Shown here piece by piece: positions 1,207 through 19,448 of a stretch of 29,323 nucleotides of DNA. The position numbers and the translations under genes were made by a program. The first letter of the stretch is position 1. Each line of letters starts with the position of its first letter. Source of the stretch: a virus; the IMG/VR virus record IMGVR_UViG_3300024518_001171, positions 1-29,323 of that record; one strand, written 5' to 3'. Under the pieces are notes generated by a model. It did not search any database. It was not told where the DNA came from and saw only the letters and a list, made by a program, of their open reading frames with translations.

Positions 1207-1455
1207 TTAGATGTACGGGTGTTGCTTGTCTAGCATCCTTTCCATTTCCCCTGTTTGAACAACAGAGGCTATATGTCCTTTCAGCCTTTCAAGCAGTCTC
1301 AGTGCCAGCCAGAAAGCTTCTCGCTGGTCTACATCGTGTGACCCGGTGGTTTTCCACAGGTCTAAAATCTCTTGTTCTACAACTTGGAATGACTCTACTA
1401 ATAATGGATCTTGTAGAAGTCGTTTAGCATTTCTTTCTCTAGCTTCGTCTGTCAT
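1207..1455 (-). CDS. Small helical protein between portal and scaffold (unknown)
   Basis: 82 residues, predicted almost entirely helical and charged, with no Cys and no membrane segment. Its ATG overlaps the portal stop codon (ATGA), so it is probably translated by coupling from the portal gene. Small proteins of this sort are common between portal and scaffold in short-tailed marine phages. Their function is not established, and I do not recognise a named family. A role in head assembly is inferred from position only. Confidence 0.75.
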   Translation of the reverse strand: MTDEARERNAKRLLQDPLLVESFQVVEQEILDLWKTTGSHDVDQREAFWLALRLLERLKGHIASVVQTGEMERMLDKQHPYI

Positions 1456-3428
1456 GTCGCTCCTATCGCAACAGCTCTATTCTGCTCTTCTTCCAATGCC
1501 AATTCTGCCATTTTGAATTGGTTGTCAGATTGTAATTTAGCAGTTTCAAGTTGTAGTTTCTGCGCTTTGAGTTGTGTCTCAGCCGATTTAATCTCCAGCT
1601 CTCCCTTCTTTATCTGTAGTTCAGCTTGCGCCATTTCTTGGCGCGGGTCTGTCTTTTGAGGAGCAACCGAAGGATCTGTCAAGAAGTCGTGAACATTCTG
1701 AAACCCCATGTTCCGTATTAAAGCAGCACCCATGTTGTATAGGTTTTGTTCTGTTACAATATTAAGCCCTCCAGACATTGCCTGAGAAGCGAATTGCATC
1801 ATTTGAGATAAGTGCATCATCTGTTGGTCACGATTACCATGCCCAAGGCCAACCGATATAGTGCAGTCTGATTTGTCTCTCCACATATCTGGCCTTACAG
1901 CAACCCACTCATTATTCAACTGTATAACCCGCTCCTTATCCTGGTTCTTTTGAACTAACTCATATATACCCAGCATAAGCTCCTTTACGCCAGTCTCCGC
2001 GAAGTTTCTGGCAATGAGCTCAACTCTAGCTTGTGCGGCAGTCATAACCTGCGCAACAGCCGTTGCTGTCTGATGGGATTTTAACGCATCATCATTTAAT
2101 CCCTGTGTATTCTTAGATACACCGGATCTTGACTCACGAATTCCATCAAGATATGTGAGCATCTGGAACGAATAGGGTTGTAGTGGCGGGGTTGTTAGAG
2201 GCATAACCGCATTCGGGCTCTTCACACGAACTACGCCTCCAGGTCTTTGGGTAAGAAGGTCATCTAAATTTGCTTGCCCTTCAAGAACAGCATAGCGACC
2301 AAAGTTCTGGTTATACATGTTGTCCATTAAATTCCGCATCAATGTGCTCTTCATCAATTGAAGATCCATCACTAAGTCGGCAACAGACAGTCCAAAAAAC
2401 TTATGCGGTATTTTTATTGGCGTCAAAGAAACGAATGGATAACGATCTATCTCATCATTAGACAGCACCTTGTTTCCAACAGTGCAAACCTTGCGTAATT
2501 CAGCTATACCATCATTATTGTAATCTGTTCTTAGGAAGCTTTCATGCAACCAGTAAGTTCTCAGAGACTCATCGTAAGAACCACCTCCCCACGCATCACC
2601 CCAATAATTTGCAGACTTGTCAAACTCATACCTTGAAAGCCTTTCCATTGAGTATTCGTCTTCATCAAAACCACCGCCAGTTAAATCTTCAGGTTCAAGA
2701 TTTTGATCGGGGTACATCTCTCTGAGATCTGATAGTGTTTTAGGAACCCGGTGACAAACGAATCTTGCATCCTGAAGCGTCTTAGCTTCCCTTGAAATTA
2801 GAAACTCATCTGGCGGGACATTCTCTATGCGAACGCTACCCCTCTTTACATTCCTGGTAATAACTATGTGATGCCCCTCGGATGAGGTAACTCCATAATC
2901 AGACTCCACTTCCTCCCCTGGAGGAGTGTGCTCAATAACCTCTACATCATCGTCAGCCACAAGAGCGGCAAGCTCTTCATCATCAAGACCTTTGTATTCT
3001 TCCCTATTCCATTTCTCAGACTCATCCCACCAAATCTTAACAATTCCGTTTTTCTGTAATAGCGCATCTGTAAACCAAGAATAAAGAATCTCCCAGCCGG
3101 GATTATCCTTCATAAATACGTGATTAACGTAATCAGTAGCTTGTTTCGCCGCTTTTACATCTTCAGGACCTACAGGGGAAAAGGTTACCATGGTGTCTCC
3201 TGACGCGAATACACGCATCAGAGAGGGCTTTAGCCATTCAATAGTATCCTGTACGGTAGAGTCTACGAACTGACTGCGGCCATCCACTTCGTTTCCGAAG
3301 GGCAAGCTGTAGTAATAGTCCATAGCCTTTTCACGCTGCTTAGATATAGTATCACTGTAGCCAAGAGAGTCGGTAATCTCCCCACGTATTCTTGTTACAA
3401 TGTCTTCTTCGCTAATTTTTTCAGCCAT
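1452..3428 (-). CDS. Portal (head-tail connector) protein
   Basis: 658 residues, in the usual range for P22-type portals. The N-terminal region carries patterns typical of this class: DYYYSLPFGNEVDGRSQFVD near residues 37-56, then VQDTIEWLKPSLMRVF. A helical wing/stem region lies in the middle. The last ~70 residues are a charged Gln/Lys/Glu-rich helix, as in portals with a C-terminal barrel or coiled coil. Twelve copies would form the ring through which DNA enters and leaves the head. The gene directly follows the large terminase with a TAATG overlap and is followed by the 82-aa gene with an ATGA overlap, so the head block is translationally coupled. Confidence 0.93.
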   Translation of the reverse strand: MAEKISEEDIVTRIRGEITDSLGYSDTISKQREKAMDYYYSLPFGNEVDGRSQFVDSTVQDTIEWLKPSLMRVFASGDTMVTFSPVGPEDVKAAKQATDYVNHVFMKDNPGWEILYSWFTDALLQKNGIVKIWWDESEKWNREEYKGLDDEELAALVADDDVEVIEHTPPGEEVESDYGVTSSEGHHIVITRNVKRGSVRIENVPPDEFLISREAKTLQDARFVCHRVPKTLSDLREMYPDQNLEPEDLTGGGFDEDEYSMERLSRYEFDKSANYWGDAWGGGSYDESLRTYWLHESFLRTDYNNDGIAELRKVCTVGNKVLSNDEIDRYPFVSLTPIKIPHKFFGLSVADLVMDLQLMKSTLMRNLMDNMYNQNFGRYAVLEGQANLDDLLTQRPGGVVRVKSPNAVMPLTTPPLQPYSFQMLTYLDGIRESRSGVSKNTQGLNDDALKSHQTATAVAQVMTAAQARVELIARNFAETGVKELMLGIYELVQKNQDKERVIQLNNEWVAVRPDMWRDKSDCTISVGLGHGNRDQQMMHLSQMMQFASQAMSGGLNIVTEQNLYNMGAALIRNMGFQNVHDFLTDPSVAPQKTDPRQEMAQAELQIKKGELEIKSAETQLKAQKLQLETAKLQSDNQFKMAELALEEEQNRAVAIGAT

Positions 3429-4933
3429 TAAACAATACCATAATTCATATAATCCACGTCTTTAGTCCATGTTGGGTCATCTTCAGCAACAGAAAATCTA
3501 GCTGACATTGCAGCGTATCTTGTTGCAGACATTAAGTCATCGTGCAAGGGGACGATTTTACCCTCTTTCCTGTGGTACATTCTAAACTCTTGAAACCAAT
3601 CACCAAGGGTTGAAAAGACATGGAATTTACCGTCCTCCATTCTTTGCAGCATAGCCATTATGCCTTCTTCAATCGAGTTTCCGCCCTTTTTCTCCCCCAA
3701 AGCTGGAGGGTTTTCAAAGTGGAATGGTAGCATATTACACCCAAGAGCCCTGTATTGATCTGCCAATCCAGGGTTGCCCATTGAGTCACGCCTATTACCA
3801 TCGTGAGGCCATGCAACAGGTATGAACCTGGGTCTGTTGTTAATCGCCGACGCATGTACAGAAGGAGGCGCTTTTGCCTGTCGATAGCAATCGTATACAT
3901 ACATCTCATCCTCGTCCCTGTCCCAAGCCAACCACACAAGGGCTGTTGGGTGGTCAAATCCAAAATCAATTCCACAGATTCTAGGCCAATACTCTGGTAT
4001 TGGGAACGGATCTACAATAATCTTCTCTTCCATTATAGGAAATACAAGCCCAGAACCTACTGTTGGCCTACCATAGCGCCTCATCTCACGCTCATGTGGG
4101 CTGTAGCTGGAAAGGATCTGCTCCATCACAAGATGGTTTAGATGCCCAGCGTTCCCCAGCAAGCTATTTACGTCTTCAGAAGCGTCGTCCCAAGTAGCGT
4201 TATTCAAAGACTGTCCAGGCTGTAGGTTATTCAAGAAACCCGCTACGGTTTCTGTCATGCCCATTTCAGGAGTAAAGGTCATATACACCATGCCTTTTCT
4301 ATCCAGGGTTCTCGTTACAGCCTGTGAGTATATGTCCCGTGGAGGCTCTTCGTCAAGCCAAATACAATCAACCGACCTTCCTTGCCATTTCTCAACACCC
4401 ATTTCATAGGCTTTGAAAAAGAGCGAACTGTTGCCGCCTGACACGTGCCTAATAAGGGCAACACTCTTTGCATTAGGGACGCCGGGTTTCCGCTCTGCTT
4501 TTATTATCAAATGCTTGGGAACAGATCCACTCCCCCAAGCTGCCGGGTCATCAGGGGAACCCAATAATTCATACTGCACAATGTCTCTGGTGGTTTCATT
4601 TGAAACCCCACCAGCCCATGCAACTATTTCTTTGTAAAACCGCTTTCCTTTCCACCAGTCTGGATATAATCCAGTCAAGTGCATTGCTAACTCAGCACTC
4701 CCGCAATAGGACTTTCCTATACGGTTAGCAGCCATCAATAATCTCTGATTGGCTGAAGCTCCAGTTCCGTGGAAGTTTATCTGATATGGGTAGGGATCGT
4801 AGAAGTCAAGCTTGTTGAATCGCTCACGCTTTCTTAGTTCTCTTGCTATTTCTACCGCTCTTTCTAGTTCCTCCCTTGTAGCCGCTTGCGTAGGCAGCTC
4901 GTGCTTGCTTTTCTGCTCCCGATCTAGTCGCAT
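3428..4933 (-). CDS. terL: Terminase large subunit (packaging ATPase and nuclease)
   Basis: 501 residues with both expected domains. The N-terminal ATPase has a Walker A-type AANRIGKS at 68-75, a Walker B with catalytic acid CIWLDEEPP around 190-198, and a coupling-motif-like TFTPE at 219-223. The C-terminal RNase H-fold nuclease shows GIDFGFDHPTALVW from 321 (Asp323), WPHDGN at 375-380 and HDDLMSA at 464-470, giving the usual acidic cluster. It cuts concatemers and pumps DNA through the portal. The ATG at 4933 has a weak AGG about 8 bases upstream. A 69-base gap without a gene separates it from the small subunit. Confidence 0.96.
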   Translation of the reverse strand: MRLDREQKSKHELPTQAATREELERAVEIARELRKRERFNKLDFYDPYPYQINFHGTGASANQRLLMAANRIGKSYCGSAELAMHLTGLYPDWWKGKRFYKEIVAWAGGVSNETTRDIVQYELLGSPDDPAAWGSGSVPKHLIIKAERKPGVPNAKSVALIRHVSGGNSSLFFKAYEMGVEKWQGRSVDCIWLDEEPPRDIYSQAVTRTLDRKGMVYMTFTPEMGMTETVAGFLNNLQPGQSLNNATWDDASEDVNSLLGNAGHLNHLVMEQILSSYSPHEREMRRYGRPTVGSGLVFPIMEEKIIVDPFPIPEYWPRICGIDFGFDHPTALVWLAWDRDEDEMYVYDCYRQAKAPPSVHASAINNRPRFIPVAWPHDGNRRDSMGNPGLADQYRALGCNMLPFHFENPPALGEKKGGNSIEEGIMAMLQRMEDGKFHVFSTLGDWFQEFRMYHRKEGKIVPLHDDLMSATRYAAMSARFSVAEDDPTWTKDVDYMNYGIV

Positions 4934-7442: not shown

Positions 7443-7751
7443 ATGACTCAAAGTCTAAGAGCGGGACCCACGGTAAACGTCATTCCTTGCGACAAGTCTA
7501 CTCGTTTGGGTAAAGCGTTATCCGAGGATGAATCGTCAATCGCTACGTTGGAAAATAAGTGGACCACCTTGTTGATCGACGAAGCCAGGGATTGGCCGGG
7601 AGAGAAGCGCCCCGGTTGGATTCCAATGGCTGCTGTTTTTATGGTCCTGGAACAGGTCTACAAAGACGGGATAACCGTTGGCGCTAGATCCTGGCAAGAT
7701 GAAGATGATGATAATTTACTAGAGCACTTTTCCTATGGGGGAACTAAGTAA
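7443..7751 (+). CDS. Unknown 102-aa protein paired with the DUF932-like gene
   Basis: 102 residues, acidic at the C-terminus (QDEDDDNLLEHFSYGGTK) and with no signal peptide or membrane span. I do not recognise a family. I chose ATG 7443 over an in-frame GTG at 7428 because GTGGAG at 7428-7433 then serves as ribosome-binding site with about 9 bases spacing, while nothing suitable precedes the GTG. Its stop shares one base with the next ATG (TAATG at 7749-7753), so it is very likely translated together with the DUF932-like protein and may be its partner. Its codon use is that of the island, not of the phage core. Confidence 0.65.
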   Translation: MTQSLRAGPTVNVIPCDKSTRLGKALSEDESSIATLENKWTTLLIDEARDWPGEKRPGWIPMAAVFMVLEQVYKDGITVGARSWQDEDDDNLLEHFSYGGTK

Positions 7752-9028
7752 TGAATGAACCAATCACGGGAACACCGACATCCTTTAATATGCGGCTGCC
7801 GAGCTGGTACTCGCAGCGCGATTGCTGGTTCGCAGCCGATCAGGATATGCCACCGATACGGGATTTTCTAGATCCGGTCACGGGCGACTATCTCCTGGAG
7901 AAACACGGGTTAAATTTTGAATGGGGAACCAGGAAGATCTGGGCAGCGGACCGTTTAATGGACCGGGGCGCGGATGCTAACCCTATTCATCATGCGAAAC
8001 GCGTCGAAGCTTGTACCAGGAATAACGATATTATCCGAGGTTCTGGAACCTTCGTTGCTAACAGCTACACTTTTGAGGGCCACCAACCCCGGGACATGAT
8101 TAAATTCTTTTCCGAACTTGAGTACAAGGTAAACGCCCTGGCCGATAAGGGAATAACCCTGGAATTCCAACAATTGTCGCCGATCAATTACGGGCGGCAG
8201 ATCTTCGCAGCGGCCAAGCTTAAAGGCACAACAATGCGGCTGTTCGATGGCGAAGAACAGGCGGAGCCCTGGGTTTGTTTCACAACCGGGATCGGTCAAT
8301 CGACGCGCCTATGGTTGGAAGCCGTTATGCTTAGTTGCTCAAATGCTTTTCCAACTAAGTTTAATGACAAGACGGCAAGCGCCTGGTCGCATCGGTCACG
8401 GGCAAACTTGCTTAATATCCACACCGATATTGCTGACCCTACTTTCCTGGAGAACCGCGACGATTTTGATCGCTTCTCTCTGGGCATGGGCGAAGATGAC
8501 CGGCGCGCCTACTTTCTAGACGTCTTATGGCGGAACCGAGGGACCCTTTATCAGATCCCGAGTTATCACCACGGCGGACCCAAGAGTTATCGGGAACTCT
8601 CCCGCACGGCAGACTGGGCCCAGGCGAAAGACGTTAAGGACCGGACCGCTGCCGAACGCACGTCGATAGCGGGACGGAAACGACTTCTTAAACATCTGGT
8701 CACAATCTCAAATATCTACACGGTAGCCCCTGGGCAAGATTCACCCGCCCGTCAGGGGAAGATCTGGGGCGCGTTGAATGCCATTGTTTATTGGCTGGAC
8801 CACGAGAAGCCCGAACGCCCGACTACTAAAAAAGACGGGACCCCGGCGCTGGGGATCTCTGATACCCCTGGGCTTAATTCGATGCTGTTAGGCCAGCGGT
8901 CTATTCTGAAACGGTCCGCGATGAAGATCGCGACCGAGCAGACCGACCTACGATGGAAACAGGCTAGAAGCTTAGAAGCGGCTGATCACGCTATGCACGA
9001 CGTTACACGTTATTGGCGGGTTGCTTGA
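7751..9028 (+). CDS. DUF932-like protein (phage/plasmid-type), accessory island
   Basis: 425 residues. The middle of the protein follows the DUF932 pattern: a conserved segment around residues 105-145, then INYGRQIFAAAKLKGTTM, then the pattern x-CFTTGIGQSTRLWLEAVMLSCSNAFP, then AWSHRSRANLL. In DUF932 these correspond to the G+..A+L, dG(S/T), C.NA and H+ elements. The N-terminal ~90 residues and the C-terminus are less typical. The family is common on plasmids and phages and its biochemical role is unknown. Arginine is mostly CGN here, whereas the RNR gene uses mainly AGA/AGG, indicating a different source. It is followed by a strong terminator. The family match is by remembered pattern and moderately sure; the open frame is certain. 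Confidence 0.6.
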   Translation: MNEPITGTPTSFNMRLPSWYSQRDCWFAADQDMPPIRDFLDPVTGDYLLEKHGLNFEWGTRKIWAADRLMDRGADANPIHHAKRVEACTRNNDIIRGSGTFVANSYTFEGHQPRDMIKFFSELEYKVNALADKGITLEFQQLSPINYGRQIFAAAKLKGTTMRLFDGEEQAEPWVCFTTGIGQSTRLWLEAVMLSCSNAFPTKFNDKTASAWSHRSRANLLNIHTDIADPTFLENRDDFDRFSLGMGEDDRRAYFLDVLWRNRGTLYQIPSYHHGGPKSYRELSRTADWAQAKDVKDRTAAERTSIAGRKRLLKHLVTISNIYTVAPGQDSPARQGKIWGALNAIVYWLDHEKPERPTTKKDGTPALGISDTPGLNSMLLGQRSILKRSAMKIATEQTDLRWKQARSLEAADHAMHDVTRYWRVA

Positions 9029-9133
9029 GGTCTCACGAAACCGAGACGCTAATCATAGCGTTAATTCTGTTAATAATTGTCCTGATGGTATGATCGCCCC
9101 CCGGCGGCGATAGTAGCCGGGTCCTCCACATTG
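9029..9133 (+). other. Structured 3' region with two mutually exclusive hairpins
   Basis: Between the DUF932-like stop and the terminator there are several short dyads: GTCTC with GAGAC (about 9030-9046), CGCTA-ATCA-TAGCG (about 9044-9057), ATCGCC (9093-9098) with GGCGAT (9106-9111), and CCCGGC (9100-9105) with GCCGGG (9116-9121). The last two share bases, so only one can form at a time. This could be mRNA 3' structure, an attenuator-like switch or a small RNA. No coding frame is evident. Confidence 0.4.
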
Positions 9134-9159
9134 CCCCGCCACCCGGCGGGGTTTTTTTT
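9134..9159 (+). terminator. Intrinsic terminator after the DUF932-like gene
   Basis: A perfect seven-pair GC stem, CCCCGCC (9134-9140) and GGCGGGG (9145-9151), with loop ACCC, is followed by eight T residues (9152-9159). It is a textbook Rho-independent terminator in plus orientation, closing the 102-aa/DUF932 transcription unit. Confidence 0.93.
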
Positions 9160-9265: not shown

Positions 9266-9913
9266 TTATCGAGTCACCCTGGGCCCCCTTCCTCTTTTAG
9301 GAAATCCGACCATAAAAATCCGCCCGTGTTGGTAACAAATTGAGCACGTGTCGCATCCTACAATGCCCCCGAGCCCGTGCCAATCTGCTGGGCAAGATAC
9401 CACCTTATGACCGGCGGGGGTAAATTCTACTTTATCGCATCCGGTCGCCTGTAGGGTAGCAATTGGCGCGGTACTGCTAGCCGCTATCTCATCGGCTTCT
9501 GTGTAACTATCGGCTGACCAATTGATTGTGAATCCCTGGGCCCCAGCCCATTCTACCAGTCTGATATTGTGCGGGGTTCTAGGATGGTGGGTATAGGTAA
9601 ATCCGTGTTTGTTTCTGTTCGCGCTCACCAGTAGGCGCAACATAGATTCATCAATCTGACCGTGGCCATTGTGCGGTATATCTCCCGCCTGGGCATAGCG
9701 CCACCTCTGCCCCTTGGGTAGGCGTTTAATTGCCGTGCATAAGGTAGGCCAGTCCGTCCCACGTTCTCCACTGGTCACCTTATCCCAATGCCATTTTAAC
9801 GGCGGTCGTTTTGCATAACAGAATTTACAGTCCACGCTGCATGTTTCCGCCCCAGCGGTTACCGTAGGAATGCGGGTTTTTCTGTTTCCGCGTAAGTTAA
9901 GAGAATATGCCAT
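9266..9913 (-). CDS. Radical-SAM-like Fe-S protein of phage type
   Basis: 215 residues. ETCSVDCKFCYAKRPPLKWH at 23-42 has the canonical CX3CX2C motif (Cys25, Cys29, Cys32) followed by Tyr, which in radical SAM enzymes binds a 4Fe-4S cluster and S-adenosylmethionine. RWRYAQAGDIPHNGH (about 70-84) is reminiscent of the second-strand Gly/Asp region. Near the C-terminus there is a second Cys cluster, GCDTCSICYQHGR (Cys187, Cys190, Cys193), with Cys174 before it. Compact proteins with these two Cys clusters occur in phages; no substrate is known to me. The length is short for a full TIM barrel (usually more than 250 residues). It points toward the DUF932 module. AGGA lies about 7 bases before the ATG. 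Confidence 0.65.
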   Translation of the reverse strand: MAYSLNLRGNRKTRIPTVTAGAETCSVDCKFCYAKRPPLKWHWDKVTSGERGTDWPTLCTAIKRLPKGQRWRYAQAGDIPHNGHGQIDESMLRLLVSANRNKHGFTYTHHPRTPHNIRLVEWAGAQGFTINWSADSYTEADEIAASSTAPIATLQATGCDKVEFTPAGHKVVSCPADWHGLGGIVGCDTCSICYQHGRIFMVGFPKRGRGPRVTR

Positions 9914-9939: not shown

Positions 9940-9945
9940 ATTATA
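9940..9945 (-). promoter_or_regulatory. Candidate -10 element for the radical-SAM-like gene
   Basis: A perfect TATAAT on the minus strand lies 27 bases upstream of the ATG at 9913, giving a predicted leader of about 20 bases that contains the ribosome-binding site. No good -35 hexamer is visible at 16-18 bases spacing, so it would be weak or activator-dependent. Confidence 0.35.
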
Positions 9946-9948
9946 CAC

Positions 9949-10095
9949 TTATTCGGGCCAGTCTGCCACTAAATTCCTACGATTGTATTTTTTCGCTGTA
10001 GCGTGTTTTTTGGGTTTATATGGGCTGTGCTTCTGTACAAGGTTCCTCGTGCGTCGGCGGTCACGACGTGCCTTTACGTGCTCCCGCTCGTGCAT
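9949..10095 (-). CDS. Possible small basic protein (48 aa)
   Basis: From an ATG at 10095, 48 residues, of which nearly half are Lys, Arg or His: MHEREHVKARRDRRRTRNLV, then PYKPKKHATAKKYNRRNL, ending VADWPE. The codons (CGC, CGT) agree with the island genes. An in-frame TTG at 10137 would add 14 residues. No clear Shine-Dalgarno precedes either start. If real it could bind nucleic acid. It lies just upstream of the radical-SAM-like gene on the same strand. Confidence 0.35.
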   Translation of the reverse strand: MHEREHVKARRDRRRTRNLVQKHSPYKPKKHATAKKYNRRNLVADWPE

Positions 10096-13394: not shown

Positions 13395-13689
13395 GCCATG
13401 GAAGAGGTTTGAGCGTAGGGTTGCTGCTATATGCGGCGGAGAGAGAATACCAGTGTCAGACAGGAGAACACCTTTGGATGTAAAGCATGACCTGCTAGGG
13501 ATTGAGTGCAAGTTTAGAACCAAGCTTCCTAAGTGGCTTTTTAACGACGCCTGGAACCAAGCTGTAGCCGGGTGTGCCGGAACAGACCTGATACCCACAG
13601 TTGTCGCTGGAGAGAAGGGGAATAGCAATGCTTTCGCAATCATCAACCTCGATGACTTGATGAAAATATTAGAGGGGAGAAACAAGTAG
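13387..13689 (+). CDS. Small PD-(D/E)XK nuclease, resolvase-like
   Basis: 100 residues with the nuclease signature: KRFERRVAAICGG (Glu9), TPLDVKHDLLGIECKFR, giving Asp31 and Glu40-Cys-Lys42. A later helix (FNDAWNQAVAGC) supplies the Gln-Ala element common in VRR-NUC and archaeal Holliday-junction-resolvase relatives. Such proteins cut branched or flapped DNA. The GTG start at 13387 overlaps the helicase end by 8 bases, and the stop overlaps the RNR start by one base. The substrate is not predictable from sequence. Confidence 0.68.
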   Translation: MDKPWKRFERRVAAICGGERIPVSDRRTPLDVKHDLLGIECKFRTKLPKWLFNDAWNQAVAGCAGTDLIPTVVAGEKGNSNAFAIINLDDLMKILEGRNK

Positions 13690-15560
13690 TGGATGAATAT
13701 CAGAAATTTATACATAAGAGTCGGTACGCTAGGTATCTCGACTCAGAGGGAAGGCGTGAAACTTGGGAGGAAACCGTAGATAGGTATTGTCGGTTTTGGG
13801 AAAACACAATCTCACACAAGGGCAAAAAGCTACCCCTTCCAGATGAGGTTAGACAGGCCATCTTGGATATGGAGATCATGCCAAGCATGAGGGCTTTGAT
13901 GACTGCTGGGCCAGCCCTGGAAAGAGATCACATGGCTGGTTATAACTGCTCTTTCATTGCTGTCGATCACGTTAGAGCTTTTGATGAGAACCTGTACGTT
14001 CTCCTTTGTGGTACTGGAGTAGGGTTCAGCGTAGAGAGGCAGTTCATCAGCAAGCTGCCTGATGTAGGAGAAGCCTTTCACGATACTGACTCCACCATAG
14101 TGGTGAGGGACAGCAAGATTGGCTGGGCAAGTGCCCTTCGGGAATTGATCAGCTTTCTATATCACGGTCTGATACCTAAGATAGACTACTCTAGGATTCG
14201 TCCTTCCGGGGCTAGGCTGAAGACTTTTGGAGGCAGGGCTTCCGGGCCAGACCCTTTGAAAAGATTATTCATGCAGTACATTAGAATATTTCAAAACGCA
14301 AAGGGAAGGAAGCTAACCAGTATAGAGTGCCACGACCTTCTCTGCTTTAATGGGGAGGCTGTAGTGGTCGGAGGGGTCCGTAGAGCAGCGGAGCTAAGCT
14401 TGAGCAACCTTACCGATGAGCGCATGCAAAGAGCTAAGATGGGTCAGTGGTTTATCGAGAACCCACAACGAGCCTTGGCAAACAATTCCGTATGCTACAC
14501 AGAGAAGCCAGATATTGGGATATTTATGAGGGAGTGGGTGGCCCTCTATGAATCAAAGAGTGGGGAGAGGGGTATCTTCAACCGCCAAGCGGCTAAAGCT
14601 CTCGCCCCTGAACGGAGAGATACCGACCATGAGTTCGGCTGCAATCCTTGCAGCGAGGTGGTGCTTCGGAGTTGCGGTTTGTGCAATTTATCAGAAGTTA
14701 TACTAAGACCCTCGGACACCATACCTAACGCTCTACGAAAGGTTAGATTGGCTACAATCTTAGGGACTTACCAGTCAACCCTTACAGACTTCAGATATGT
14801 TCGGCCCGTCTGGAAGCGTAATGCAGAGGAGGAGAGGCTACTTGGAGTTAGCTTTACGGGGGTATTTGATTGTCCGGTTATATTAAATGCGTCCCCTGCC
14901 GACCTGGAAGATATGAAGCTGCAAGCTGTGGAGGTTAACGCGCTCTGGGCCAAGAAGTTGAATATTGAACAATCTGTGGCTACAACCTGCATCAAGCCGT
15001 CTGGAACGGTTAGTCAGTTAGTGGGGGTTGCGGGATCCGGGCTTCACCCGTCTTACTCCAAGCACTACATACGAAGAGTCAGGCAAGATATCAAGGACCC
15101 TCTGAACGCAGCTTTAATTAGCGCAGGGCAACCCTTCATACCGGACCCATACAACAAGGACGCTTTGGTGTTTGAGTTCCCGATGAAGACTCCTGCGAAA
15201 TCTCTCACCAAGGACAAGGTGAGCGCTATAGAACACTTGGAGATTTGGAAGAAGTTTTCCATTCACTGGTGTGAACATAAGCCAAGCGTTACAATCTACA
15301 TTGCAGAAGATGAGTGGCTGGCTGTTGGAGCATGGTGCTGGGATAACTTTGATATACTTAGTGGAGTTAGCTTTCTCCCTAAAGCGGATGATGCTCATAT
15401 ATATGAAGCCGCCCCATATGAAGAGATCAACTCAGAGGCGTATAATGCAATGTTGAAGAAAACAAACCTTGCTATTGACTGGGACTCTGTTGTAGAGGAG
15501 AATGACAACACCACAGGCAGCCAGGAGCTTGCTTGCACGGCAGGAGCTTGCGAGATATGA
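13689..15560 (+). CDS. nrdJ: Adenosylcobalamin-dependent (class II) ribonucleotide reductase
   Basis: 623 residues. All catalytic elements are visible: Cys87 in AGYNCSFIAVD and Cys332 in the RSCGLCNLSE segment form the active-site redox pair; NPCSE at 319-323 gives Asn319, the thiyl-radical Cys321 and Glu323; KPSGTVSQLVGVAGSGLHPS (436-455) is the phosphate/substrate loop. The C-terminus has a CX4C pair (Cys616, Cys621) for thioredoxin-type re-reduction, as in the monomeric Lactobacillus reductase. VVGGVRRAAELSLSN also fits that class. Members of that family are about 740 residues, so this is a compact form. It would make deoxynucleotides using host vitamin B12. GTG start at 13689, GAGGGGAG upstream, one-base overlap with the nuclease gene. 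Confidence 0.93.
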   Translation: MDEYQKFIHKSRYARYLDSEGRRETWEETVDRYCRFWENTISHKGKKLPLPDEVRQAILDMEIMPSMRALMTAGPALERDHMAGYNCSFIAVDHVRAFDENLYVLLCGTGVGFSVERQFISKLPDVGEAFHDTDSTIVVRDSKIGWASALRELISFLYHGLIPKIDYSRIRPSGARLKTFGGRASGPDPLKRLFMQYIRIFQNAKGRKLTSIECHDLLCFNGEAVVVGGVRRAAELSLSNLTDERMQRAKMGQWFIENPQRALANNSVCYTEKPDIGIFMREWVALYESKSGERGIFNRQAAKALAPERRDTDHEFGCNPCSEVVLRSCGLCNLSEVILRPSDTIPNALRKVRLATILGTYQSTLTDFRYVRPVWKRNAEEERLLGVSFTGVFDCPVILNASPADLEDMKLQAVEVNALWAKKLNIEQSVATTCIKPSGTVSQLVGVAGSGLHPSYSKHYIRRVRQDIKDPLNAALISAGQPFIPDPYNKDALVFEFPMKTPAKSLTKDKVSAIEHLEIWKKFSIHWCEHKPSVTIYIAEDEWLAVGAWCWDNFDILSGVSFLPKADDAHIYEAAPYEEINSEAYNAMLKKTNLAIDWDSVVEENDNTTGSQELACTAGACEI

Positions 15561-15901
15561 GTTTGCAGAAGAAGAAGCGGTGGACCTCAAGACCTTACCT
15601 TAATTGGGTTAGCAAGCTTCCTTGCGCTTCTTGCGCTATGCTCGATGAAACCATAGTGGCTCATCACCTAACAAGCAGAAACGCCCCATTCTGTGGGGGG
15701 ATGGGGTATAAAGCGTCGGACATATTTGTTATGCCTTTGTGCCATAAGTGTCACAGCGATGCACACAACGGGGATGCGGACGTTCTGGACTGGCAATTCA
15801 CGTTCATCTTTGATACACTTGACAAGGCAACAAGGGCTGGAGTTTTGGAGGTTGATAACATGAGGTCAAAATTTCCACCAGACGAGGGGGTGGTTCTGTG
15901 A
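15557..15901 (+). CDS. HNH/DUF968-type zinc nuclease-like protein
   Basis: 114 residues. RPYLNWVSKLPCASC at 12-26 (Cys23, Cys26), IVAHHLTSRN at 33-42 (His36, His37), FCGGMGYKASDIFVMPLCHK at 45-64 and CHSDAH at 65-70 (Cys62, Cys65, His66, His70) reproduce the DUF968/HNH pattern. The paired Cys bind zinc and the HH provides the catalytic His. Relatives in phages act in recombination or nick DNA. ATG 15557 overlaps the RNR stop (ATGA) and has AGGAG about 10 bases upstream. Confidence 0.8.
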   Translation: MSLQKKKRWTSRPYLNWVSKLPCASCAMLDETIVAHHLTSRNAPFCGGMGYKASDIFVMPLCHKCHSDAHNGDADVLDWQFTFIFDTLDKATRAGVLEVDNMRSKFPPDEGVVL

Positions 15902-19126: not shown

Positions 19127-19143
19127 ATTTTTAATGATTCCAT
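19048..19143 (-). CDS. Small membrane protein (31 aa)
   Basis: ATG 19143 to TAG 19048: MESLKIWAKENPIYALIIGV, then ILASVLYHLFS. One hydrophobic span with an N-terminal charged end. GAGGA lies about 7 bases upstream and the ATG overlaps the IscA stop (TAATG), strong signs of real translation. Its 3' two thirds overlap the lipoprotein gene in a different frame. Possibly a holin-like or spanin-associated peptide. Confidence 0.6.
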   Translation of the reverse strand: MESLKIWAKENPIYALIIGVILASVLYHLFS

Positions 19144-19448
19144 TAAGTTTCCTCAAGTGTGAAAGAATTACCGCAACCACATGACTTAGTGTTGGGTATT
19201 TTGAAGTTGAAGGAGGGGGAGAACGGGTCATCAATCCAATCCAGAGTCGCCTTTGACAAATACGCCGCCGAGGTGGAGTCTATAACCAAGTTCCTTTTCA
19301 GCCATATGTCGTTCTCGTTTGCTCCATCTGTCTTCGACAAGCCTACCGTGAATCCGCTGCAACCACCCCCATTGACTTCTACCCTTAGATATTCTGCTTC
19401 GGATAGAGTTTGATCTATTTTCTTTTCTGCTGCTGGTGTGATGTTCAT
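19143..19448 (-). CDS. A-type iron-sulfur carrier (IscA/ErpA/HesB family)
   Basis: 101 residues, the normal family length. The three ligand cysteines are present: Cys30 in VEVNGGGCSGF, and Cys90 and Cys92 in PNTKSCGCGNSF, matching Cys35/99/101 of IscA. The beta-rich middle with FNFKIPN before the CGCG motif is typical. These proteins bind iron or 4Fe-4S clusters and pass them to target enzymes. In a phage this is an auxiliary gene, perhaps serving a viral or host Fe-S protein. It overlaps the coiled-coil gene upstream (ATGA) and the 31-aa gene downstream (TAATG), so it is co-translated with the membrane genes. Confidence 0.92.
   Translation of the reverse strand: MNITPAAEKKIDQTLSEAEYLRVEVNGGGCSGFTVGLSKTDGANENDIWLKRNLVIDSTSAAYLSKATLDWIDDPFSPSFNFKIPNTKSCGCGNSFTLEET

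Follow-up and report, generated by a model that had tools for sequence, protein, structure and literature searches.

A compact phage DUF7227 protein with a predicted radical-SAM-like barrel and a second conserved cysteine set

The window analysed here, a stretch of viral DNA of 29,323 nucleotides (IMG/VR record IMGVR_UViG_3300024518_001171), carries on its minus strand an open reading frame (9266..9913) encoding a full-length protein of the Pfam family DUF7227. Probably it is a small enzyme of the radical-SAM-like type that belongs to the SplB lineage and has an auxiliary site, which in turn probably holds an Fe-S cluster.

The DUF7227 reading frame and its conserved residues

The reading frame starts with ATG and encodes 215 amino acids, of which residues 9-209 are covered by the profile PF23872 (1.4e-57, 195.3 bits compared to a curated cut-off of 27). 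The dN/dS values (NG86) against two near twins from IMG/VR were 0.028 and 0.036; such values around 0.03 indicate that purifying selection on the gene is strong. Because of the profile match, the low dN/dS and seven cysteines present in 60 of 60 aligned proteins, a chance reading frame can be dismissed. A profile search, as suggested in a preliminary description of this DNA, yielded with DUF7227 a phage family of unassigned function, but neither PF04055 nor any other radical SAM family profile matched the window protein or the 60 aligned proteins at E up to 10.

A tblastn search with the protein (E ≤0.01) matched 182 phage records, 166 of them from Pseudomonas phages, and two plasmid matches were obtained. 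The 60 of the 182 phage matches listed are annotated as 'hypothetical protein' or carry no annotation, and no open-access literature on DUF7227 was found. Examples of the family occur in Pseudomonas phage PAK_P1, the cyanophages P-SSP7 and P-SSP2, roseophage CRP-345 and a Variovorax plasmid. A promoter-like site (GTGGCA, 18 nt, TATAAT; 10/12) is located 5' of the gene at 9940..9969 on the minus strand; since the region contains 2 such sites compared to 1.7 in shuffled sequences, which is chance level, its role as promoter of the DUF7227 gene is suggestive only.

For the analysis of conserved residues, homologues were retrieved by alignment, namely 24 genome loci and, out of 590 viral relatives, the best 80. 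The alignment used below, termed A3, comprises the window protein and 59 of 105 loci chosen for mutual identities below 85% (n = 60), including a twin of the window protein with 97% identity (L001). The patterns used for retrieval, TYTH and WRxxxAGD, are free of cysteine; the conservation of TYTH and AGD in A3 is therefore partly built in.

Seven cysteines (C25, C29, C32, C174, C187, C190 and C193) are present in all 60 proteins, while Cys59 and Cys159 of the window protein lie outside this set. C25, C29 and C32 (codons within 9818..9841, minus strand) form a candidate radical SAM [4Fe-4S] loop. The spacing of this loop varies within the family: CX3CX6C was found in 43 of 60 proteins, CX3CX13C in 6, CX3CX5C in 4, CX3CX7C in 3, and CX2CX6C and CX3CX9C in one each. 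The canonical CX3CX2C was confined to the window protein and its near twin L001 (2/60), and we rejected it as a signature of the family; it is an oddity of this lineage within DUF7227. The preliminary description had taken CX3CX2C at residues 25-32 as the radical SAM motif. Its position and spacing agree with this for the window protein itself, where the three cysteines follow a strand (17-20) with canonical spacing, but the spacing is atypical of the family. Apart from the shortened loop, the window protein shares with DUF7227 the full-length match, the seven cysteines and the AGD, TYTH and N-x-S residues.

C174 (9392..9394, minus strand), the first candidate ligand of a second site, is followed by P175 in 60/60 proteins, and the other candidate ligands, C187-x2-C190-x2-C193 (9335..9355, minus strand), show an invariant CxxCxxC spacing in A3, with 8-12 residues between C174 and C187. 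The second cluster including Cys174 that had been noticed earlier is hence a conserved feature; the string GCDTCSIC given for it starts at G186. CxxCxxC together with a distal CP is a cluster pattern of ferredoxins. SPASM/Twitch auxiliary clusters follow a pattern beginning CX9-15GX4C, which was not found in DUF7227, where the arrangement is C-x8 to x12-C-x2-C-x2-C.

Further conserved positions were located with the aid of the structural model described below. These are A76-G77-D78 at the predicted end of strand 2 (9680..9688, G77 and D78 in 60/60), H109 of the TYTH motif after strand 3 (9587..9589, 60/60) and N131-W-S133 in strand 4 (9515..9523, N131 and S133 in 60/60), all on the minus strand. 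R198 is invariant in A3, too. Radical SAM enzymes often, although not universally, carry GGE at the end of strand 2. This motif was not found in the DUF7227 protein, which has AGD in its place. Since GGE is missing and PF04055 gave no match, we do not file the protein as a canonical radical SAM enzyme but as a member of DUF7227 that most likely acts in a similar manner.

These deviations could also mean that the barrel is derived from radical SAM enzymes and has lost SAM chemistry, binding structural zinc or an Fe-S cluster and serving to bind a ligand, a nucleic acid or a partner protein. The canonical cysteine spacing in only 2/60 proteins, the lacking match to radical SAM profiles and the replacement of GGE by AGD all agree with such a loss. 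However, D78, H109, N131, S133 and R198 are invariant in 60/60 proteins and were kept in a clade with transposed sequence blocks (see below), and for these two reasons they look like an active site. We therefore regard a barrel without SAM chemistry as unlikely.

Predicted fold and stepwise kinship

The AlphaFold2 model of the window protein, computed with A3, reached a pLDDT of 91.7 and a pTM of 0.89, with somewhat lower confidence over the second cysteine region (blocks of 78-95). It is a small beta/alpha barrel in which the three-cysteine loop comes directly after strand 1 (17-20), AGD after strand 2 (70-76) and H109 after strand 3 (103-108). Strand 4 (129-134) bears N131 and S133, and a strand at 170-173 runs into C174-P175. 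This order of strands and motifs is that of radical SAM enzymes. The radical-SAM-like architecture proposed from the sequence agrees with the model in its predicted barrel, its three-cysteine loop after strand 1 and AGD after strand 2.

A zinc-ribbon protein lacking even a partial barrel, with CX3CX2C arising by chance, had been named as the outcome that would speak against this architecture. The CxxC and CP motifs alone could indeed be zinc ligands. The model, however, is one beta/alpha barrel of high confidence, and the 21 structural matches listed with Z of at least 5 are apparently proteins of the TIM-barrel type, which makes a zinc ribbon highly improbable. The protein had also been considered short for a full radical SAM barrel. 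Since its relatives are of similar size (mostly 215-275 amino acids as called, some with over-long start choices), we do not regard it as a truncated barrel; for the same reason a truncated fragment of a larger enzyme found no support.

A Foldseek search of the PDB with the model gave no significant match: all values were above 1e-3, and the 50 matches listed did not include a radical SAM enzyme. A second structural comparison gave the highest Z (6.4) for CutC, which is not a radical SAM enzyme, and 15 of the 50 matches listed were radical SAM enzymes (Z 4.5-5.9), some of them presumably so; Z values under 8 may reflect merely a common arrangement rather than relatedness. The four longest alignments (173, 173, 171 and 169 residues) were all to spore photoproduct lyase (Z 4.9-5.2). 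With their start at model residue 1 = chain residue 66, these alignments would map C25/C29/C32 onto 90/94/97, a register that is deduced from the ends of the aligned ranges and assumes that there is no gap before residue 32. According to PMC3742179, the cluster cysteines of the B. subtilis enzyme are C91, C95 and C98, and the numbering of the crystallised spore photoproduct lyase is shifted by -1, giving 90, 94 and 97.

The peptide-modifying radical SAM enzymes EpeE, SuiB, anSMEcpe and CteB were among the structural matches as well (Z 4.5-5.7). They would fit a radical SAM enzyme modifying a peptide or protein, with the C-terminal cysteines as a SPASM/Twitch-like auxiliary cluster. The cysteine spacing of DUF7227 (8-12 residues, then CxxCxxC) differs, however, from the SPASM pattern, and the recurrent neighbour of the gene is DUF932; a peptide modifier is therefore quite improbable.

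Among viral models (BFVD), 11 matches passed 1e-3, including named DUF7227 and GP88 proteins. Beyond this threshold, the matches comprised a Gp37/Gp68-like protein (5.9e-3), further GP88 proteins and, as a weak match at 0.041, a Radical_SAM protein. Two GP88-domain proteins of archaeal viruses, R4TH14 (6.7e-4) and A0A514K2X2 (1.5e-3), also match the fold; the viruses are Halogranum tailed virus 1 and Nitrosopumilus spindle-shaped virus.

Comparisons of profiles and alignments suggest a stepwise kinship leading from DUF7227 through GP88 and DUF5131 to SplB-like radical SAM proteins. For the first step, a search allowing E up to 10 matched 16 of the 60 A3 proteins to the GP88 profile (PF17338), the best of them at 3.6e-9, and hhalign aligned DUF7227 and GP88 over 177 columns (p 9.1e-4), a score reached by none of 60 shuffles. 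The window protein itself had no match to GP88 at E up to 10, and the DUF5131 profile (PF07505) matched neither it nor any of the 60 A3 members. We therefore rejected filing it under either family. GP88, which occurs in mycobacteriophages, pelagiphages and archaeal virus proteins, has strands that align with those of DUF7227, with shared motifs around the acid of SD/GD, at the YTK/YTH strand and in the closing VGL.AKG/VGF.AHG; its three-cysteine loop, in contrast, is CX6CX3C, and the C-terminal cysteine set is absent.

For the second step, 9 of 13 DUF5131 proteins matched the GP88 model with E values of 0.1 or less (best 1e-7), and of three genomes above the GP88 cut-off, two reach it via DUF5131 proteins. 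An alignment of 8 GP88 sequences was not significant against DUF5131 (34/60 shuffles as high). DUF5131 (phage Gp37/Gp68) and TIGR04471 are linked to DUF7227 through GP88 and have in common with it a three-cysteine loop, here ending in CYA, and motifs at strand 2 (here SMSD) and strand 3 (here LTKR), but the loop of DUF5131 is CX6CX2C and the CxxCxxC set is lacking. By inspection, no counterpart of the CP...CxxCxxC set was seen in the GP88 or DUF5131 alignments.

For the third step, hhalign of DUF5131 with SplB-like PA0069 proteins placed the cysteine loops of both opposite each other in an alignment of 172 columns (p 2.1e-5, 0/60 shuffles as high); an earlier, larger alignment of the two had given p 2.5e-4. 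The TIGR04471 model ('radical SAM mobile pair protein A') was matched, below the cut-off, by 3/3 DUF5131 proteins given (best 8.4e-30); one GP88 protein and two DUF7227 proteins compared with it gave no match. GP88, DUF5131 and TIGR04471 look like one superfamily (PF17338 and PF07505 proteins L125, L126 and L129). Direct comparisons of DUF7227 with DUF5131 (p 0.16, 8/60 shuffles as high) and with the SplB-like set (2/60 shuffles as high) were not significant. Sequence searches of the PDB yielded SkfB (0.001) and NifB (0.19) for the SplB-like set, four weak and seemingly unrelated matches for DUF5131 (best 0.14) and nothing for DUF7227 at E up to 10.

The SplB-like proteins (NF033668 PA0069 family; spore photoproduct lyase) resemble DUF7227 in the longest structural alignments and in cluster cysteines that would lie in register by offset, but they are much longer. 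No counterpart of the H-donor cysteine of spore photoproduct lyase was established in DUF7227, and there was no sign of UV repair. In the open-access literature, we found nothing naming 'radical SAM mobile pair', nothing joining DUF5131 or phage Gp37 with SplB or a three-cysteine-motif partner and, by title, nothing relevant on PF17338, PF07505 or gene product 88.

A clade with transposed sequence blocks

In the protein WJZ48072 of phage DSL-LC04 (L017:5878-6570), the pieces of the DUF7227 profile occur out of order. Of 287 viral stretches related to it, 80 were kept (L147-L226); they form an aquatic phage clade. In 79/79 full-length proteins of this clade the last stretch maps upstream of the preceding one, compared to 0/119 ordinary proteins, and in 13/13 records searched the profile pieces follow the order ~6-36, 88-218, 36-87, with no further copy listed. 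Two cysteines of the cluster loop remain near the N-terminus, and the third one has been relocated near the C-terminus along with helix 1 and strand 2, which bears AGD. The equivalents of H109, N131, S133, C174, C187, C190, C193 and R198 are invariant in 24/24 aligned proteins of the clade, whose last cysteine spacing is CxxCx6C.

As each moved block is a unit of loop, helix and strand, the rearranged chain could still form an identical barrel. The AlphaFold2 model of a transposed-clade protein reached a pLDDT of 68.4 and a pTM of 0.75, and the second structural comparison with this model gave nothing above Z 3.1. Because of its low confidence and the differing order of elements, we consider this model uninformative.

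DUF932 neighbourhood and proposed mechanism

Downstream of the DUF7227 gene, and converging on it across 237 bases, lies a DUF932 gene (7751..9028, plus strand) encoding 425 amino acids. Its match to PF06067 is borderline (24.1 bits, cut-off 23), and TIGR03299 matched the protein with 27.5 bits, below the cut-off of 110.7. The adjoining, convergent DUF932 module of the preliminary description was thus recovered. A terminator-like hairpin with a T run is situated between the two genes (9133..9152, plus strand); 6 such sites were found in the region compared to 1.6 in shuffled sequences.

PF06067 was detected in 7 of 45 ordinary DUF7227 viral contigs and not in the other 38; these contigs, many of them fragments, were 44 chosen from the best 80 of 590 relatives plus the L001 contig, and the seven positive ones include three close relatives (L026-L028) and the twin of the window. 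In the transposed clade, DUF932 was found in 24 of 30 contigs (30 of 80 kept), which count once for the association because they represent one lineage. As a control, 50 of 80 contigs listed for an arbitrary 15-mer were used, with larger ones preferred, and DUF932 was present in only one of these 50. A neighbourhood analysis had been proposed earlier, and it revealed DUF932 within 1.4 kb of DUF7227 (216-1396 bases) in 31/31 viral contigs where both were found; this closeness is partly forced in short contigs, yet it holds in contigs of 40-84 kb.

In the ordinary family DUF932 is located upstream in 2 cases and downstream in 5, with a convergent orientation only in L001, as in the window, and in the transposed clade downstream in 24/24. 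The association recurs in different arrangements (adjoining genes in L071, L026, L033, L022, L001, L012, L017 and L147-L218) and is not obligate. In the L022 contig (67,995 bases), each end carries a DUF932 match, one at 785-1000 and the other at 64413-64628, which may reflect a terminal repeat or an overlap in the assembly. No open-access article about the function of DUF932 was recognised by title among the matches listed.

On the Variovorax plasmid (L012), DUF932 lies 0.9 kb from DUF7227, and a YqaJ-type recombinase is also annotated nearby. DUF7227 is situated in conserved islands of this plasmid and of several Variovorax genomes (L102-L113), in which recurrent neighbours gave no usable functional clue. 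Clustering of neighbours at 70 loci resulted in six clusters reaching at least 4 loci, one of them DUF932-like. In the Autographiviridae phage P-SSP7, DUF7227 is the first annotated gene; a similar place is taken by GP88 as third gene in HTVC120P and second gene in Lo5R7ANS, while the numbering for the DUF7227 position differs in P-SSP2.

The window also encodes, as described earlier, an IscA-type Fe-S biogenesis protein (19143..19448, minus strand; PF01521, 1.5e-8), which may have a role in the maturation of the DUF7227 protein. Other genes comprise a ribonucleotide reductase (13689-15560, plus strand) whose insertion domain is of the B12-dependent class II type (PF21995, 9.5e-7) and a DUF968 protein (15533-15901, plus strand; 3.7e-15) with a weak, below-cut-off match to a RecA-dependent nuclease. 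The SU10-type portal (PF23899, 4.4e-222) and large terminase at 1452-4933 on the minus strand point to an SU10-like phage.

If the DUF7227 protein is a radical-SAM-like enzyme, C25/C29/C32 would ligate a [4Fe-4S] cluster, S-adenosylmethionine would bind to its free iron, and D78, H109 and N131/S133 would position this cofactor. One-electron reduction would then split it, releasing the 5'-deoxyadenosyl radical, which would abstract hydrogen from the substrate. The C-terminal cysteine set may hold an auxiliary Fe-S cluster acting as electron relay or substrate anchor. Given such an enzyme, the kinship to SplB and the recurrent company of DUF932 make a nucleic-acid base, for repair or modification, a tentative candidate for the substrate; this is the most speculative part of our proposal. 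Taken together, DUF7227 may comprise two-cluster, SplB-derived phage radical enzymes acting with DUF932 on nucleic acid, and the transposed clade a natural split-cluster radical SAM enzyme with two cysteines near the N-terminus and another one some 50 residues before the C-terminal end; as a joint reading we consider this rather doubtful.

DUF7227, GP88 and DUF5131 are families without assigned function that occur in many phages, including Pseudomonas phage PAK_P1, which is accessible in the laboratory. Placing them beside SplB-like radical SAM proteins turns them into one testable enzyme prediction, and the link to DUF932 offers a first functional partner for another function-less family. The transposed clade represents a natural rearrangement experiment that points out the residues required to come together in the fold; activity of its proteins would show that the cluster site of radical SAM enzymes tolerates a split cysteine motif.
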